In this document: positions 30,577 to 56,650 of the stretch, piece by piece
Layout of the letters: every line of letters starts with the position of its first letter
Numbering within the stretch: the first letter of the stretch is position 1
Assembly (NCBI GenBank): GCA_016874005.1
Contig: VGVQ01000001.1
Span: 124,001 to 188,000, forward strand
From: Gemmatimonadota bacterium
Lineage (GTDB): Bacteria > Gemmatimonadota > Gemmatimonadetes > Gemmatimonadales > GWC2-71-9
Reading direction: 5' to 3'
DNA length: 64,000 bases
The notes under the pieces: model-generated
Database searches by the model: none
What the model saw: the letters and a program-made list of their open reading frames with translations, nothing else
What the model was told of the DNA's origin: nothing
Program-made: the position numbers and the translations under genes

Positions 30577-30725
30577 TGGATCGACACGCTCCAGAGGATG
30601 GATGGTTGTTGCCGAGTCCGGACGAGCCGGGCACTACCCGAATCTACGCCGAAAATGGCCCGGTGTTTCGAGCCCCGATCGAACCTGCGCGAAGGCGGGG
30701 CCCGAGTTAGAATCCCTTCCACATC

Positions 30726-51881: not shown

Positions 51882-52540
51882 ATGGTAGCCTTCGGCCGGG
51901 CCACGGTGCTGACGTTCGACTGCTACGGCACGCTGATCGACTGGGAGCGGGGGATCGTCGCCGCGGTCACGTCGGTGGCGGCGCGCCACGCCGTCACGGT
52001 GGCCGATCACGACATCCTGGCCCGTTTCGCCGCTATCGAACCATTCTCGACCTGGCCCTGGGGTCGCTCTGCCGGGATCTCGGATTCGAGCCAGGGTCGG
52101 ACGAGCTTGCCTCGCTGTCGGCGTCGCTCCCCGGCTGGCCACCGTTCCCGGATACGGTGGCCGCCCTGAAGCGGTTGTCCGAGCGGTTCGAGCTGGGGAT
52201 CATCTCGAACGTCGATGACGACCTGTTCGCGGCGACCGCGGAGCATCTCGAGGTCCCGTTTCGCTGGGTCGTCACCGCCGAGCAGGTGGGGAGCTACAAG
52301 CCATCGCCCGCGAATTTCCGGGCGGCTCTGGCTCGGATCGGCCGGCCCGCCTCGGAAATCGTCCACTGCGCCCAGAGCCTCTTTCATGATATTGGCCCTG
52401 CCGGCCAACTCGGCCTCGCCACGGTCTGGGTCGACCGCCGCGGAGGACGGCCCGGCGGCGCCACCCCGCCGTCCGATGCCCAGGCCGATCTGACCGTGCC
52501 CGACCTCGCCACGCTGGCTCGGCTCGCTCTTCAGGGTTAG
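51882..52540 (+). pseudogene. HAD-family hydrolase (haloacid dehalogenase type II-like), broken by an internal deletion
   Basis: The gene begins at ATG 51882 with the HAD nucleophile motif TFDCYGTLID and reads in frame to about 52020. From there the family sequence continues in the next frame (PFRRYRTILDLALG, then WPPFPDTVAALKRL, ISNVDDDLF and the Lys-containing SYKPSPANF) to the stop at 52540. Compared with the usual type II pattern, about 10-15 residues between LARF and PFRRY are missing together with the frame change, consistent with a small deletion at or near 52010-52025. Unless the assembly is wrong, the product is non-functional. Its stop overlaps that of the convergent sensor gene (TTAG). 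Confidence 0.78.
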
Positions 52541-53913
52541 GGCGCCACCCGGAAGCGAGAAATATCGTACCACGAGCGGAGCACGCCCGGTTCCCCATCG
52601 ATATCGACCAACTCCGCCGAGATGAGGCAGCGCCGCGTCTCACCATTGGGAAGGGTGACGGTGGCCTCGACGTCGCGGGCCGCGCCGTCGGAGGCGAGCT
52701 GCCGTTCGACGGCGGCCCGCGCGGCCGGGTCGACCCGGAGGAGCGATTCCAGCTCCCGCTCGCGCGCCATGTCGTCGGATGAGATCCCGGCCAGCTTGAG
52801 CCAGGCCCGGTTGGCGTAGCGGAGCCGGCCGTCCGAACGCCGGGCGATCGTCATCGCCGCCGGGTTCTCGAAGAAGGCTCGGGCAAACCGCCGCTCCGAC
52901 GCTCGCAATGCCTCTTCGTCGCGGCGGTGTTCGGCCGCCTCGATCGCCAAGGTGGCGAAATCGGTCAACGACGCCGCAAACGCCTCTTCGTCGACGGTCC
53001 AGGTCCGGGCCCCCCCGACGTGTTCGACGCAAAGAACCCCGATCACCTGCCCGGAGCGGATGATCGCGGTGTCGAGCATCGAGCCGATCCCGAGCGGCGC
53101 CAGATAGTCCGCCAGCTCGGCGGTCCTCGGGTCGGTCGGGGCGCTGGCGGCGGCGATGTGCCGCCCTTGCCGCAACGCCGCGAAATATGCCGGATACCGA
53201 GTTGCCTCCAGCGACTCGGCCTCGAGGTGGCTCGACATCGCCCGGACATAGAGATCCTCGCACGCGAGCCGGCGACCCTCGTCCGCCATTCGCCAGACGC
53301 TGGCCCGTTCGACGTTGAGGAAACTCGAGGCGGCCTCGGTGATCGCCCGGAATGCCCGGCCCAAGTCGCCAGCGGTGAGCGCCGGGTCGCGGGCGATTGC
53401 GGCCAAGGCCGCGTTGTGCCGGCGCAATCGTTCCTCACGGGCGGCAAGCTCGTCCCTGGTTCGGGCCAGCTCCGAATTGGTCCGGACCAGCTCCTTGCGG
53501 CGGGTAACGATCCGGCCCGCCATGTCATCGAAAGCGGCCGCGAGAACCGCCACCTCGTGGGGCACCTTGAGATTGGAGCGGTCGACCTCGGATTCCGCGG
53601 CCAGGGCCATGGCGTTGTGGCGGAGCCTCTCGAGCGGCTCGGCCAGTGCCTTGGCCAGACGAACCGCCGCCGCCACCGCGAGGAGGGTCCCGACCAGGAA
53701 GATCGCCGCGAACCACGGCGTGAGATCCACGGCCACCGCGTTCACCATCGGGGCCACCTCCGGGGGCACCGCGGCCGCCAGGCGCCGCTCGAACACCAGC
53801 CAGAGGGTCGCAAACGCGATCGCGCCACTCAATACCAAACCGACCAGCGCGCCGAGGAGCAGCGACCGGAAGCTAGGCCGATGAGCGCCTTCACCAGAAT
53901 CGGGACTCGGCAT
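52537..53913 (-). CDS. membrane HAMP-GAF-PAS sensor protein without output domain
   Basis: The 458-residue protein has two membrane segments (about residues 20-40 and 65-90) enclosing a short periplasmic loop. A HAMP-like linker and a coiled coil (ARTRDELAAREERLRRHN) follow, then a GAF domain (about 180-320; ERASVWRM, ALRQGRHIAA, GVLCVEHVGG) and a PAS domain (about 335-455; RFARAFFENPAAM, YANRAWLKLAG). It stops just after the PAC end (SWYDISRF), where a histidine kinase or GGDEF module would normally start. ATG 53913 is taken as start; a TTG at 53937 is possible. Confidence 0.82.
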   Translation of the reverse strand: MPSPDSGEGAHRPSFRSLLLGALVGLVLSGAIAFATLWLVFERRLAAAVPPEVAPMVNAVAVDLTPWFAAIFLVGTLLAVAAAVRLAKALAEPLERLRHNAMALAAESEVDRSNLKVPHEVAVLAAAFDDMAGRIVTRRKELVRTNSELARTRDELAAREERLRRHNAALAAIARDPALTAGDLGRAFRAITEAASSFLNVERASVWRMADEGRRLACEDLYVRAMSSHLEAESLEATRYPAYFAALRQGRHIAAASAPTDPRTAELADYLAPLGIGSMLDTAIIRSGQVIGVLCVEHVGGARTWTVDEEAFAASLTDFATLAIEAAEHRRDEEALRASERRFARAFFENPAAMTIARRSDGRLRYANRAWLKLAGISSDDMARERELESLLRVDPAARAAVERQLASDGAARDVEATVTLPNGETRRCLISAELVDIDGEPGVLRSWYDISRFRVAP

Positions 53914-53972
53914 GGATTCTCGTTGGGTGGCAGCCAATTGTGAGCGATTGGCCGAGATCCGTCAAATCGCTA

Positions 53973-53978: not shown

Positions 53979-54010
53979 AAACCGAACAAACACCAAAGAT
54001 TGTTGGCGTC

Positions 54011-54151
54011 ATGCCGAACAAAAGCCGAAATACCGATCCCGGATCCGCCCCCCCGGCCGACTTTCGGGTTTGCCCAGAATGCAGCGGACCAGTGGTCCGG
54101 GCGTCCGCCTGCGTCAGCTGCTCTCACTGCGGCTGGTCACGGTGCGGCTAG
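54011..54151 (+). CDS. 46-residue zinc-ribbon microprotein
   Basis: The small protein (ATG 54011) consists of a polar N-terminus and a four-plus-cysteine ribbon: CPECSGP, then CVSCSHCGWSRCG at the very end. The ribbon resembles the C-terminal CPDCG...C-x2-C-G-x-S-C tail of adenosylcobalamin-type ribonucleotide reductases and related zinc ribbons. Its 3' end overlaps the radical SAM start by ten bases, so the two are coupled. No function is known to me; metal binding is inferred from the cysteine pattern. Confidence 0.6.
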   Translation: MPNKSRNTDPGSAPPADFRVCPECSGPVVRASACVSCSHCGWSRCG

Positions 54152-55176
54152 CGAAACCCGCTCCGGCGCAGCTCGGGCTGATGCTCGACGGCACTCGACG
54201 GCTGCCGGTCCTGGACCGTCGGGACCGGGGTACCGAGTTCATTCAGCTCTCGGTATCCCAGATCGCCAATCCGCCGGAGTCGACCGGAATGGCCTTTTGG
54301 TCGATCAACCCCTATATCGGTTGCGAGTTCGGCTGCTCCTATTGTTATGCCCGCGACACCCACCGCTGGACCGTGGAACGGAACGGCCTTGCCGGCGGCT
54401 CGGTCGAGCCGCGTTTCGACTTCGAACGACGGATCTTCGTCAAGCACGACGCGGCCACGGTACTCCGGAAGACGCTCGAGCCATCGCGGGTCGGCAACCG
54501 GCTCGTCTTGATCGGCACCGCGACCGACCCATACCAGCCGGCTGAGCGGCGGTTCGGGGTGACCCGCGCCATCCTCGAGGCCTTACTCGGTTTCCGAGGA
54601 TTATCGATTGGGATCACCACCAAGTCTCCCTTGGTCGCTCGGGATGTCCGGCTGCTTGCCATGCTGGCCCAACTGCACCGGGTCTCGGTCTCGATCTCGA
54701 TCATCTCCTCCGACCCCGCGGTCATTCGCCGATTCGAGCCCAGGACCCCGCTTCCCCACGCCCGGCTCCGAGCGGTTCGAGCGCTCGCCGAGGCCGGGAT
54801 CGACGTGGGGCTTCTGATCGCGCCGATATTGCCAGGTATCACCGATGGCTGGGGGGCGCTCGGCGGTCTGATGGCGGCGGGCAAGGAGGCCGGTGCGCGG
54901 CGGGCGGACGGGTTTGCGCTCAGACTCGCCCCGGTCGCTCGCGCCGGTTTCCTTCCCGTCCTCAGCCACGATCGGGCCCTCGCGGCCCGTTACCAGGCCA
55001 ACTACCGGGGCCCTCAGGTTGGGCCGGCCTATCAGCGGGCGTTGATCGGTCGGCTCCGGACGTTGCAGGCCATCCACGGATTCCCGCTCAACAAGTTCGA
55101 TCCCCCCACGGCTGCTCGGCGGCCAGCCCCGCCTTCGCCTCCAGTCGCTGAGCCCGTTACCCGGCTCGCGCTCTAA
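54142..55176 (+). CDS. radical SAM protein, PA0069/SplB-like
   Basis: The 344-residue protein has the radical SAM cluster motif CEFGCSYCYARDTH (Cys61, Cys65, Cys68), which reduces and cleaves S-adenosylmethionine. The extended CxxxCxxCYAR pattern, VLIGTATDPYQPAE and SVSISIISSDPAV match the PA0069 group related to spore photoproduct lyase, whose substrates are unknown. GTG 54142 is taken as start because it leaves the preceding microprotein intact; the frame is open from 54070. Confidence 0.88.
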   Translation: MRLAKPAPAQLGLMLDGTRRLPVLDRRDRGTEFIQLSVSQIANPPESTGMAFWSINPYIGCEFGCSYCYARDTHRWTVERNGLAGGSVEPRFDFERRIFVKHDAATVLRKTLEPSRVGNRLVLIGTATDPYQPAERRFGVTRAILEALLGFRGLSIGITTKSPLVARDVRLLAMLAQLHRVSVSISIISSDPAVIRRFEPRTPLPHARLRAVRALAEAGIDVGLLIAPILPGITDGWGALGGLMAAGKEAGARRADGFALRLAPVARAGFLPVLSHDRALAARYQANYRGPQVGPAYQRALIGRLRTLQAIHGFPLNKFDPPTAARRPAPPSPPVAEPVTRLAL

Positions 55177-55197: not shown

Positions 55198-55713
55198 ATG
55201 CCGAACGCCATCGCCGCCTCATTGCTGCCGGAGTTCGATCAGGAGATCGCCACCACCCGCCGGGTGCTCGAGCGGGTCACCGACGCCATGGCGACCTGGA
55301 AACCGCATTCGAAGTCCATGGCCGCTGGCGATCTCGCCCTCCATCTCGCCAACCTGGTTGGCTGGGCCGGGGTGACCTTGCAGGGAACCGAGCTCGACAT
55401 GAATCCGCCCGGTGGGCCGGCGTGGACACCGCCGGTCTTTCGCTCGATGGCCGATACCTTGGCCGAGTTCGACGCCAACGTGGGTCAAGCCCGGGCTGCT
55501 CTGGCCGCCGGCAGCGACGCCGACTACGGGGTCGTTTGGTCCCTCAAGAACGGTGGCGCCACGTTGTTCTCGATGCCGAGAGCGGCGGTGGTCCGCACCT
55601 TCGTGCTCAACCACCTGATTCACCATCGAGCCCAGCTCGGGATCTACCTTCGGCTCAACGACATCCCGGTCCCGGCCTCGTACGGGCCTTCCGCCGACGA
55701 GGGGCAGATGTAG
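55198..55713 (+). CDS. DinB-family protein
   Basis: The 171-residue protein is a four-helix DinB/YfiT-type metal-binding protein: LLPEFDQEIATTRRVLERV at the start, a first histidine in LALHLANLVGW and the C-terminal pair in NHLIHHRAQLGIYLR. Members act as thiol-dependent transferases or stress proteins. It follows the radical SAM gene by 21 bases. It is convergent with the broken oxidoreductase, three bases apart. Confidence 0.88.
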   Translation: MPNAIAASLLPEFDQEIATTRRVLERVTDAMATWKPHSKSMAAGDLALHLANLVGWAGVTLQGTELDMNPPGGPAWTPPVFRSMADTLAEFDANVGQARAALAAGSDADYGVVWSLKNGGATLFSMPRAAVVRTFVLNHLIHHRAQLGIYLRLNDIPVPASYGPSADEGQM

Positions 55714-55716
55714 CCC

Positions 55717-56650
55717 TCACCACTCGAGCACGATCTTGCCGAACACGCTGTTCTGTTCCATCGCGGCGTGCGCGGCCCGCACCTCGGTCATCGGGAAGCG
55801 GGCCCCGATGACAGGCGCTAGGCTGCCCGGCGCGATGGCAGGGAGTATTCGCGCCGCGAAGTCCGCGATCAGTGGCACCCGCTCCGGGCAACCCCTCGCC
55901 CGCATCACCGTTCCGATGATCTCCAGCCGAAGTCGCAGAATCGTCCCCACGTTGATCGACGGCGCCTCGGGGCCCTGCAAGGTTCCCAGCAGCACCAAGC
56001 GACCCCGCGGCTTCAGGGCGCTCAGGTTCTCCGCCAGCGCCGGGCCGCCGAGATAGTCGAGAATCACATCGACCGGCGCCGACAGGCCCGGGCGAAACCC
56101 GGCGGGCCCCAGCAACACGGTTTCCGAGAGACCCAGCGGTGCGGCCCGCTCGAGCTTGCTCGCGGTGCGAGAGACCCCGACGACCGTCGCCCCCATCCAC
56201 CGAGCGAGCTGGACCGCGGCCGTGCTGACGCCGCTTCCGACCGCGTGGATCAGGACCCGTTCGCCTCGGGCCACTCGGCCGCGGGTCGTGAGCGCGTCGG
56301 CGGCGGTCAGGAACGCTTCCGGAATCGCGGCCCCTTGGGCCGGGTCGAGGTGAGCGGGGATCGGAAGCAGCTCGTCCTCGTGGCTCACCACCAGCTCGGC
56401 ATGGGCCCCGCCAGCGGCCGGTACCGCTGCCTAACGCCTCGACCACGCCGGCGAATTCGAGACCGGGAATGTCCGCTGGCCACCCCGGCGGAGCCGGATA
56501 GGCCCCCCGCCGCTGGAGGACGTCGGCGCGGTTGAGCCCGGCCGCGCCCACCCGCACCAGAATCTGGCCGGGTCCCGGCACCGGGTCCGGGCGGTCCTCG
56601 ATCCCGATCACGCTTTGGTCGCCAGCACCGCGATAGACGATGGCCCGCAC
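55717..56650 (-). pseudogene. NADPH:quinone oxidoreductase (zinc-free MDR), broken by an internal deletion
   Basis: From GTG 56650 the N-terminal half reads normally (MRAIVYRGAG, GLNRADVLQRRGAYP, IPGLEFAGVVEALGSG). At about 56415-56425 the frame is lost after GTGRWR. The family sequence resumes in another frame as GGAHAELVVSHEDELLPIP and continues (cofactor loop AVGSGVSTAAVQLAR, LDYLGG) to the stop at 55717. About a dozen residues of the GDRVM segment, normally between these parts, are missing. It is a deletion plus frameshift or an assembly error. A CGTTAGGC octamer (56429-56436) encodes the ALG just before the break. Confidence 0.8.

Follow-up and report, generated by a model that had tools for sequence, protein, structure and literature searches.

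Why should the gene for a 46-residue, cysteine-rich protein run into the start of a radical SAM gene, and what might the two products do together? The question arises in a 64,000-nucleotide stretch of Gemmatimonadota DNA (here the window, meaning that whole stretch), where a first-pass annotation had described a small cysteine-finger protein overlapping a radical SAM gene by 10 nt; the coordinates confirm this (54011-54151 vs. 54142-55176). The features on which our argument draws, in window positions and with SPL standing for spore photoproduct lyase, are the following.

53982..53997, no strand: LexA-type box, upstream copy CCGAACAAACACCAAA, a pattern match at 9 of 10 positions
54011..54151, + strand: six-cysteine finger microprotein, 46 aa, ATG at 54011, stop ending at 54151
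54014..54029, no strand: LexA-type box, exact copy CCGAACAAAAGCCGAA, a pattern match overlapping the first codons of the microprotein
54071..54148, + strand: finger proper (C21, C24, C34, C37, C40 and C45), the C-terminal part of the microprotein
54142..55176, + strand: SPL-like radical SAM enzyme, 344 aa, GTG start
54322..54345, + strand: cluster motif C61-x3-C65-x2-C68, the sole cysteines of this enzyme

Judged from the sequences of its relatives, the pair is strongly conserved. We searched its own genome and 100 relatives for radical SAM homologues (E <= 1e-20) and found the enzyme gene in 74 of the 101 genomes: 48 from f1 and 7 from f3, two Gemmatimonadales families, and 19 from f2, a sister family. 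Upstream DNA was read for 61 of these loci (52 from f1 and f3, 9 from f2), and a regular expression requiring all six cysteines placed the finger directly upstream in 50 of them (50/52 in f1+f3; 0/9 in f2), with identical spacing in all 50. Two further f1 loci (L270 and L271) carry the finger with an apparently broken enzyme frame, and ten further f2 loci have no finger upstream; the totals, 52/54 assessable f1+f3 loci vs. 0/19 in f2 (G037, whose locus is cut by a contig end, is left out of the 54), bear out the pairing well beyond the genome in which it was first noticed. The exceptions within f1 and f3 are G023, which has no finger, and G058, in which the fourth cysteine, a predicted zinc ligand, is an arginine; G058 counts as absent in the 50/61 because the pattern demands six cysteines and it has five. 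In the relatives, where start codons were assigned by rule, finger and enzyme lie -41 to +81 nt apart. Across the f1 and f3 members of the 101 genomes, both genes are found in 55, the enzyme only in 2, the finger only in 3 and neither in 8 (Fisher p 9e-7; the first of these classes includes G058 and the contig-end cases G012 and G013, the second the truncated G037), an association inflated because incomplete assemblies drop adjacent genes together. Among the best 80 of 561 related loci, the finger lies upstream in 17, all of them Gemmatimonadota records derived from MAGs, and not in the other 63; this set shares contigs with the 101-genome set, so the two are not independent, and 39 of its loci together with the window protein make up our alignment A3. 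One genome considered as carrying a broken finger (G017, match E 0.01) was ruled out, its locus having no finger, box or enzyme.

In the genome to which the window belongs (3.88 Mb, 49 contigs), the enzyme gene is single-copy and the microprotein has a single strong match, the next being the tail of the class II ribonucleotide reductase NrdJ (E 0.002). The C-terminal half of the predicted microprotein model is confident (pLDDT about 90). All six cysteines, and likewise P22, G41 and W42, are invariant in 18/18 aligned relatives, a set picked by the six-cysteine pattern, and dN was lower than dS in 15/15 pairs (29 codons, six genomes of the genus).

The radical SAM assignment itself is secure: PF04055 scores 54.7 bits vs. 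a gathering score of 29.5, the CxxxCxxC motif is in place, and C61, C65 and C68 are found in 61/61 loci. The family label is less so. The first-pass annotation had called the enzyme PA0069-type, and PA0069 is indeed the nearest sequence family (NF033668, 205 bits); however, this lies below the curated cut-off of 360, and the Rv2578c family (NF038135) is close behind with 188.4 bits, itself below a curated cut-off of 430. By fold, the enzyme resembles spore photoproduct lyase. Its predicted model (pLDDT 89, pTM 0.87) has SPL as its best solved match (Foldseek E 1e-7; Z 19.6-20.1, rmsd 3.2-3.8 over 265-270 residues, with NifB next at Z 16.7), at an identity of 16-18% and with SPL profile scores below their cut-offs (TIGR04070 29.3 vs. 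400; PF20903 21.4 vs. 27); the only solved relative returned by sequence search was SkfB (E 7e-4). The hydrogen donor of SPL is C140, a residue mutated in several solved structures, and here the enzyme of the window departs from SPL, for its only three cysteines all sit in the cluster motif. Of 50 relatives from other lineages, 23 have cysteines at both 130 (within TDCYQP) and 144, vs. TDPYQP in our enzyme.

The strongest clue to function, absent from the first-pass annotation, is the SOS context. A repeat of 11-bp period, TTCGG-N6-TTCGG in either orientation, occurs upstream of the pair in 59/61 loci (in the 260 nt ahead of the finger or, in loci lacking one, ahead of the enzyme); the remaining two, L066 and L069, have the box at 9 of 10 positions, and the other ten f2 loci have it in front of their enzyme gene as well. 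The enrichment is local (72 boxes in 15.8 kb upstream vs. 20 in the other 528 kb of these loci; 1 and 0 for the reversed pattern). The same box stands at the central SOS genes: lexA of the window's own genome is preceded by two copies, in each of six genomes (6/6, from two families) one or more exact copies lie within 100 nt upstream of the sole lexA gene, and recA has it upstream in 3/3 genomes (L157 scored as RecA; L165 and L173 assigned by sequence recognition). CarH/LitR sites are 11-bp repeats, and light control by these regulators was dropped once the identical box turned up at lexA and recA. Scanning three genomes gave 61 matches to the box pattern vs. 23 for the reversed control, so that roughly a third of the matches are perhaps due to chance. 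Among 20 of these sites chosen for closer reading, with AT-rich spacers favoured, one in G004 (L171) precedes an ImuA-like gene (E 9e-7, far below the cut-off) and a polymerase-IV-like gene; at sites of the 20 other than those named in this text no SOS gene was recognised, and some fall within genes. One of the 20, in G002, lies directly ahead of a gene for a TIGR03916-like radical SAM protein (L168:1185-2522, - strand), a member of the UDG-linked family by likeness, with 301 bits vs. a cut-off of 343.5.

TTCGG-N6-TTCGG is thus evidently the LexA box of this lineage, as read from sequence. The pair shares this operator with lexA and recA, which places it in the SOS regulon; the evidence for regulation is strong, and the pair appears to be under DNA-damage control. 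In the alphaproteobacteria, the LexA box GTTC-N7-GTTC is likewise a direct repeat with an 11-bp period (PMC8565304), differing from ours in half-site (TTCGG) and spacer (N6). Neither the finger nor the TTCGG-N6-TTCGG box came to light in the sections consulted of the PubMed Central literature on PA0069, Rv2578c, LexA and SPL-like proteins; the box may already be among the 17 reported LexA motifs mentioned in PMC8565304. A promoter scan returned no sigma-70-type site on the + strand and one on the - strand. The window holds two more exact box matches, at 1741-1756 and 30638-30653, and around the latter (L161) no SOS gene was recognised.

The genes that follow the pair in its relatives point the same way. 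An ImuB-like match lies downstream on the same strand in 21/50 ribbon loci, that is, loci with the six-cysteine finger upstream of the enzyme gene (29-59% identity to the ImuB-like protein of G052; 39/50 had at least 2.5 kb of downstream sequence), within 100 nt in 7 of the 21 and up to 4.7 kb away in the others, and often with a DnaE2-like match after it; the Y-family domain PF00817 was confirmed in two of these ImuB-like proteins. The 11 loci without a six-cysteine finger yielded an ImuB-like match in one (L124). Our own pair is not beside imuB-dnaE2, with no ImuB- or DnaE2-like match in the 64-kb window; elsewhere in the genome, on contig C6 (L158), a DnaE2-like match (E 9e-22) lies near another box, with imuB not confirmed there. 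Taken from regulon and predicted fold, it is likely that the enzyme acts on DNA.

What, then, is the finger? Its best curated match is the C-terminus of a B12-dependent ribonucleotide reductase (NF006417, E 9.3e-6, profile positions 728-759 of 759); for comparison, it scores 18.1 bits against UPF0547 (PF10571), below the gathering score of 29. The reductase of the same genome ends in CPDCGSQLEFAEGCVKCHVCGFSECG, with the spacing C-x2-C-x9-C-x2-C-x2-C-x4-C, identical to that of the microprotein. The resemblance to a reductase tail that the first-pass annotation had noticed therefore extends to all six cysteines, and it favours a redox or metal role. The microprotein carries the six-cysteine array of the class II reductase cysteine-rich domain (of NrdJ, or of split NrdJb), in the same order, but only the last ~26 residues of a domain of 150-220 residues that is attached to or encoded for NrdJ; it is a stand-alone protein of 46 aa, encoded with an SOS-type radical SAM gene. 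That the finger is a missing NrdJ tail was ruled out, since the single NrdJ found in its own genome retains an intact one. Among 200 genomes sampled across the phylum, the listed finger matches outside f1 and f3 fall in frames of 616 to 1,685 codons, with one exception in G110; these have the size of NrdJ, our own being the one confirmed individually. In phages, 42 records match the finger, and the 20 listed are all annotated as ribonucleotide reductase.

The reductase version offers a chemical model. In the NrdJ of Stackebrandtia (S. nassauensis), C920, C923, C936 and C939 are proposed as zinc ligands and C933/C945 as a redox pair, though the measured zinc agreed with no more than three of those four ligands; turnover with TCEP requires all six finger cysteines, and the reductase domain expressed on its own was inactive in trans (PMC5704485). 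By those residue numbers, the last gap of that finger is one residue longer than in the microprotein. A later study predicts four cysteines at the zinc and the pair at the opposite end (PMC9669993). Mapped by analogy onto the microprotein, C21, C24, C37 and C40 are predicted zinc ligands and C34/C45 a predicted redox pair. In G110, a VRR-NUC-like nuclease (L299:4402-4755, - strand; PF08774 E 0.006, below the cut-off) ends in a six-cysteine finger of the reductase type, at a locus whose 10.5 kb of sequence read contain no exact SOS box; there the finger serves as a module in another, probably DNA-acting protein.

We reasoned that these observations may belong together as follows. The pair would form the head of a LexA-controlled SOS transcript; upon DNA damage, LexA would leave the TTCGG-N6-TTCGG boxes, and both proteins would be made together by overlapping translation. 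The enzyme, a vegetative relative of SPL to judge by fold and regulon, would reverse or process a DNA lesion by radical chemistry. Since it has no cysteine outside its cluster motif, an SPL-type hydrogen atom or a reducing thiol must come from elsewhere, and the microprotein, as a stand-alone copy of the redox zinc finger of class II reductases, could supply it: by analogy, zinc on C21, C24, C37 and C40 would hold the C34/C45 pair, which would pass electrons or a hydrogen atom on to the enzyme before being re-reduced. A redox role of the finger is inferred by analogy with the reductase, and to the reading as a whole, a LexA-controlled lesion-repair enzyme with thiols supplied in trans by a stand-alone redox finger, we give a probability of about 0.4. 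Its bolder form, a split lesion-reversal system in which the catalytic thiols of a photoproduct-lyase-type enzyme now reside in a second protein of 46 residues, drawn from the reductase redox tail, we hold to be doubtful.

The distribution of cysteines among the enzymes fits thiols supplied in trans. Core cysteines outside the cluster motif are absent from 24/50 ribbon-linked enzymes vs. 0/19 in f2 and 1/50 in other lineages (the latter set includes two Gemmatimonadota records, L206 and L247), and the other 26/50 ribbon-linked enzymes carry one to three extra cysteines. The f2 enzymes have cysteines at 226, 258 and 309 in 12, 15 and 15 of 19, vs. 2, 1 and 0 of 50 in the ribbon group, and the other lineages favour positions 130 and 144 (27 and 33 of 50). 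One f2 row without cluster cysteines in its best frame was kept in these counts (18/19 have them). G023, without a finger, has five extra cysteines vs. two in its sister. G058, however, contradicts the pattern, since it has lost a predicted zinc-ligand cysteine to arginine and yet its enzyme has no extra cysteine. Nor is the contrast an independent one, because f2 is a single clade and the ribbon label amounts to three changes on the tree (which held 18/50 other-lineage loci; the truncated sequence L106 was left out). Also at odds with the proposal are the f2 enzymes that do without a finger, the failure of the separately expressed reductase domain in trans, and the absence of imuB-dnaE2 beside our own pair.

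The finger also occurs alone. Four genomes (G027, G039, G052 and G197) have finger and box with no radical SAM homologue at E <= 1e-3, which weakens the case for an exclusive partnership; in G052 the finger frame runs into an ImuB-like gene, after which comes a dnaE2-like gene (L257:1662-2700, - strand), and the enzyme may have been lost from this operon. These four orphan fingers, together with the nuclease fusion in G110, are compatible with a broader role in binding DNA or protein. One version of such a role, in which the finger would be a zinc ribbon of structural function, attaching to DNA or a partner and recruiting the enzyme or SOS proteins such as ImuB to damaged DNA, its extra two cysteines having no chemical part, we consider unlikely, though it is the best placed of the alternatives. 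It would account for fingers that persist without the enzyme and, in G052, head imuB-dnaE2, for the related six-cysteine finger at the end of the G110 nuclease, and for a weak structural likeness (Z no higher than 3.6) between the finger and zinc ribbons of the ribosome and of RNA polymerase. A profile search of solved structures with the finger returned designed zinc fingers and ribosomal and other zinc proteins, with no reductase among them. Four cysteines would suffice for a structural ribbon, yet 50 of the 51 fingers upstream of the radical SAM gene in the 61 loci read keep six, the lone exception, G058, lost a predicted zinc ligand and not C34 or C45, and these last two match the NrdJ redox pair.

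The redox finger proposed here must also be weighed against readings that give the microprotein a different chemistry or none. CxxC knuckle pairs are of the rubredoxin type, and with a radical SAM gene adjacent one could picture the finger binding iron like a small rubredoxin and feeding electrons to the [4Fe-4S] cluster of the enzyme. We think this improbable: the conserved cysteines are six, not four, the f2 enzymes have no finger, and the closest sequence relatives are reductase tails, described as zinc-binding in PMC5704485. Slightly less probable still is an action of the finger on the class II reductase itself, by which it would raise or adjust the supply of dNTPs in the SOS response; the finger does copy the NrdJ tail, and its own genome has an NrdJ with that tail intact, but what the finger gene accompanies is the radical SAM gene, or SOS polymerase genes in the case of G052, and f2 has NrdJ-sized frames with the tail and no separate finger. 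The first-pass annotation had also raised the microprotein as a peptide substrate of the enzyme, which a small cysteine-rich frame overlapping a radical SAM gene would readily suggest; this has become very improbable, given an SPL-like fold, a LexA-type operator ahead of the genes, and homologues elsewhere that do without such a finger (19 f2 loci and 63 of the best 80). The overlap with the next gene could finally mean that the small frame is a leader merely coupling translation, a reading we find hardly credible in view of the invariant P, G and W besides the cysteines and of a dN below dS in every pair compared.

A redox-fingered, LexA-controlled enzyme would join a known class of radical SAM proteins under SOS control. 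Several species are reported to place their SplB radical SAM proteins under LexA-type control (PMC8565304), radical SAM proteins belong to Gram-positive and Balneolaeota LexA networks (PMC7739468) and to that of Streptomyces venezuelae (PMC9380542), and SplB-like radical SAM photolyases have been placed in SOS operons and ascribed the spore-photoproduct reaction (PMC3765255). Our enzyme shares LexA-type control with these SplB/COG1533 proteins and differs in having a finger-like companion, of which the consulted parts of PMC8565304, PMC7739468 and PMC3765255 make no mention; the zinc-ribbon-like domains described in PMC3765255 stand in Ku/DUF159 neighbourhoods, unlike our finger. Experiments on the lesion treated by SOS SplB-like proteins in growing cells were not found in the portion of the literature covered. 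The pair suggests, on present sequence evidence, a two-part DNA-repair device in one branch of Gemmatimonadota. PA0069 itself is a member of the LexA regulon in P. aeruginosa.

A conserved, co-encoded redox finger would give a concrete handle on the function of the enzyme, and a stand-alone finger may be easier to study than the reductase version; the TTCGG-N6-TTCGG box, in turn, makes the SOS regulon of these families readable. If the split lesion-reversal form of our proposal is right, the reductase finger would be a portable redox module for radical enzymes and not a peculiarity of reductases, and the SOS response here would include direct lesion reversal by a two-protein radical enzyme.

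Around the pair in the window, a HAMP-GAF-PAS gene (52537-53937, - strand) runs divergently, and the intergenic stretch with the LexA-type boxes is common to both sides. A DinB-superfamily (DinB_2) gene (55198-55713, + strand) follows the radical SAM gene at a distance of 21 nt and may be cotranscribed with it. Beyond it lies a gene recognised by eye as quinone-oxidoreductase-like (55717-56650, - strand). Its coding sequence is divided between two frames near 56430, so that either the gene is broken or the assembly is wrong there; in G039 (L256), the orphan finger is followed by a similar quinone-oxidoreductase-like gene on the opposite strand.
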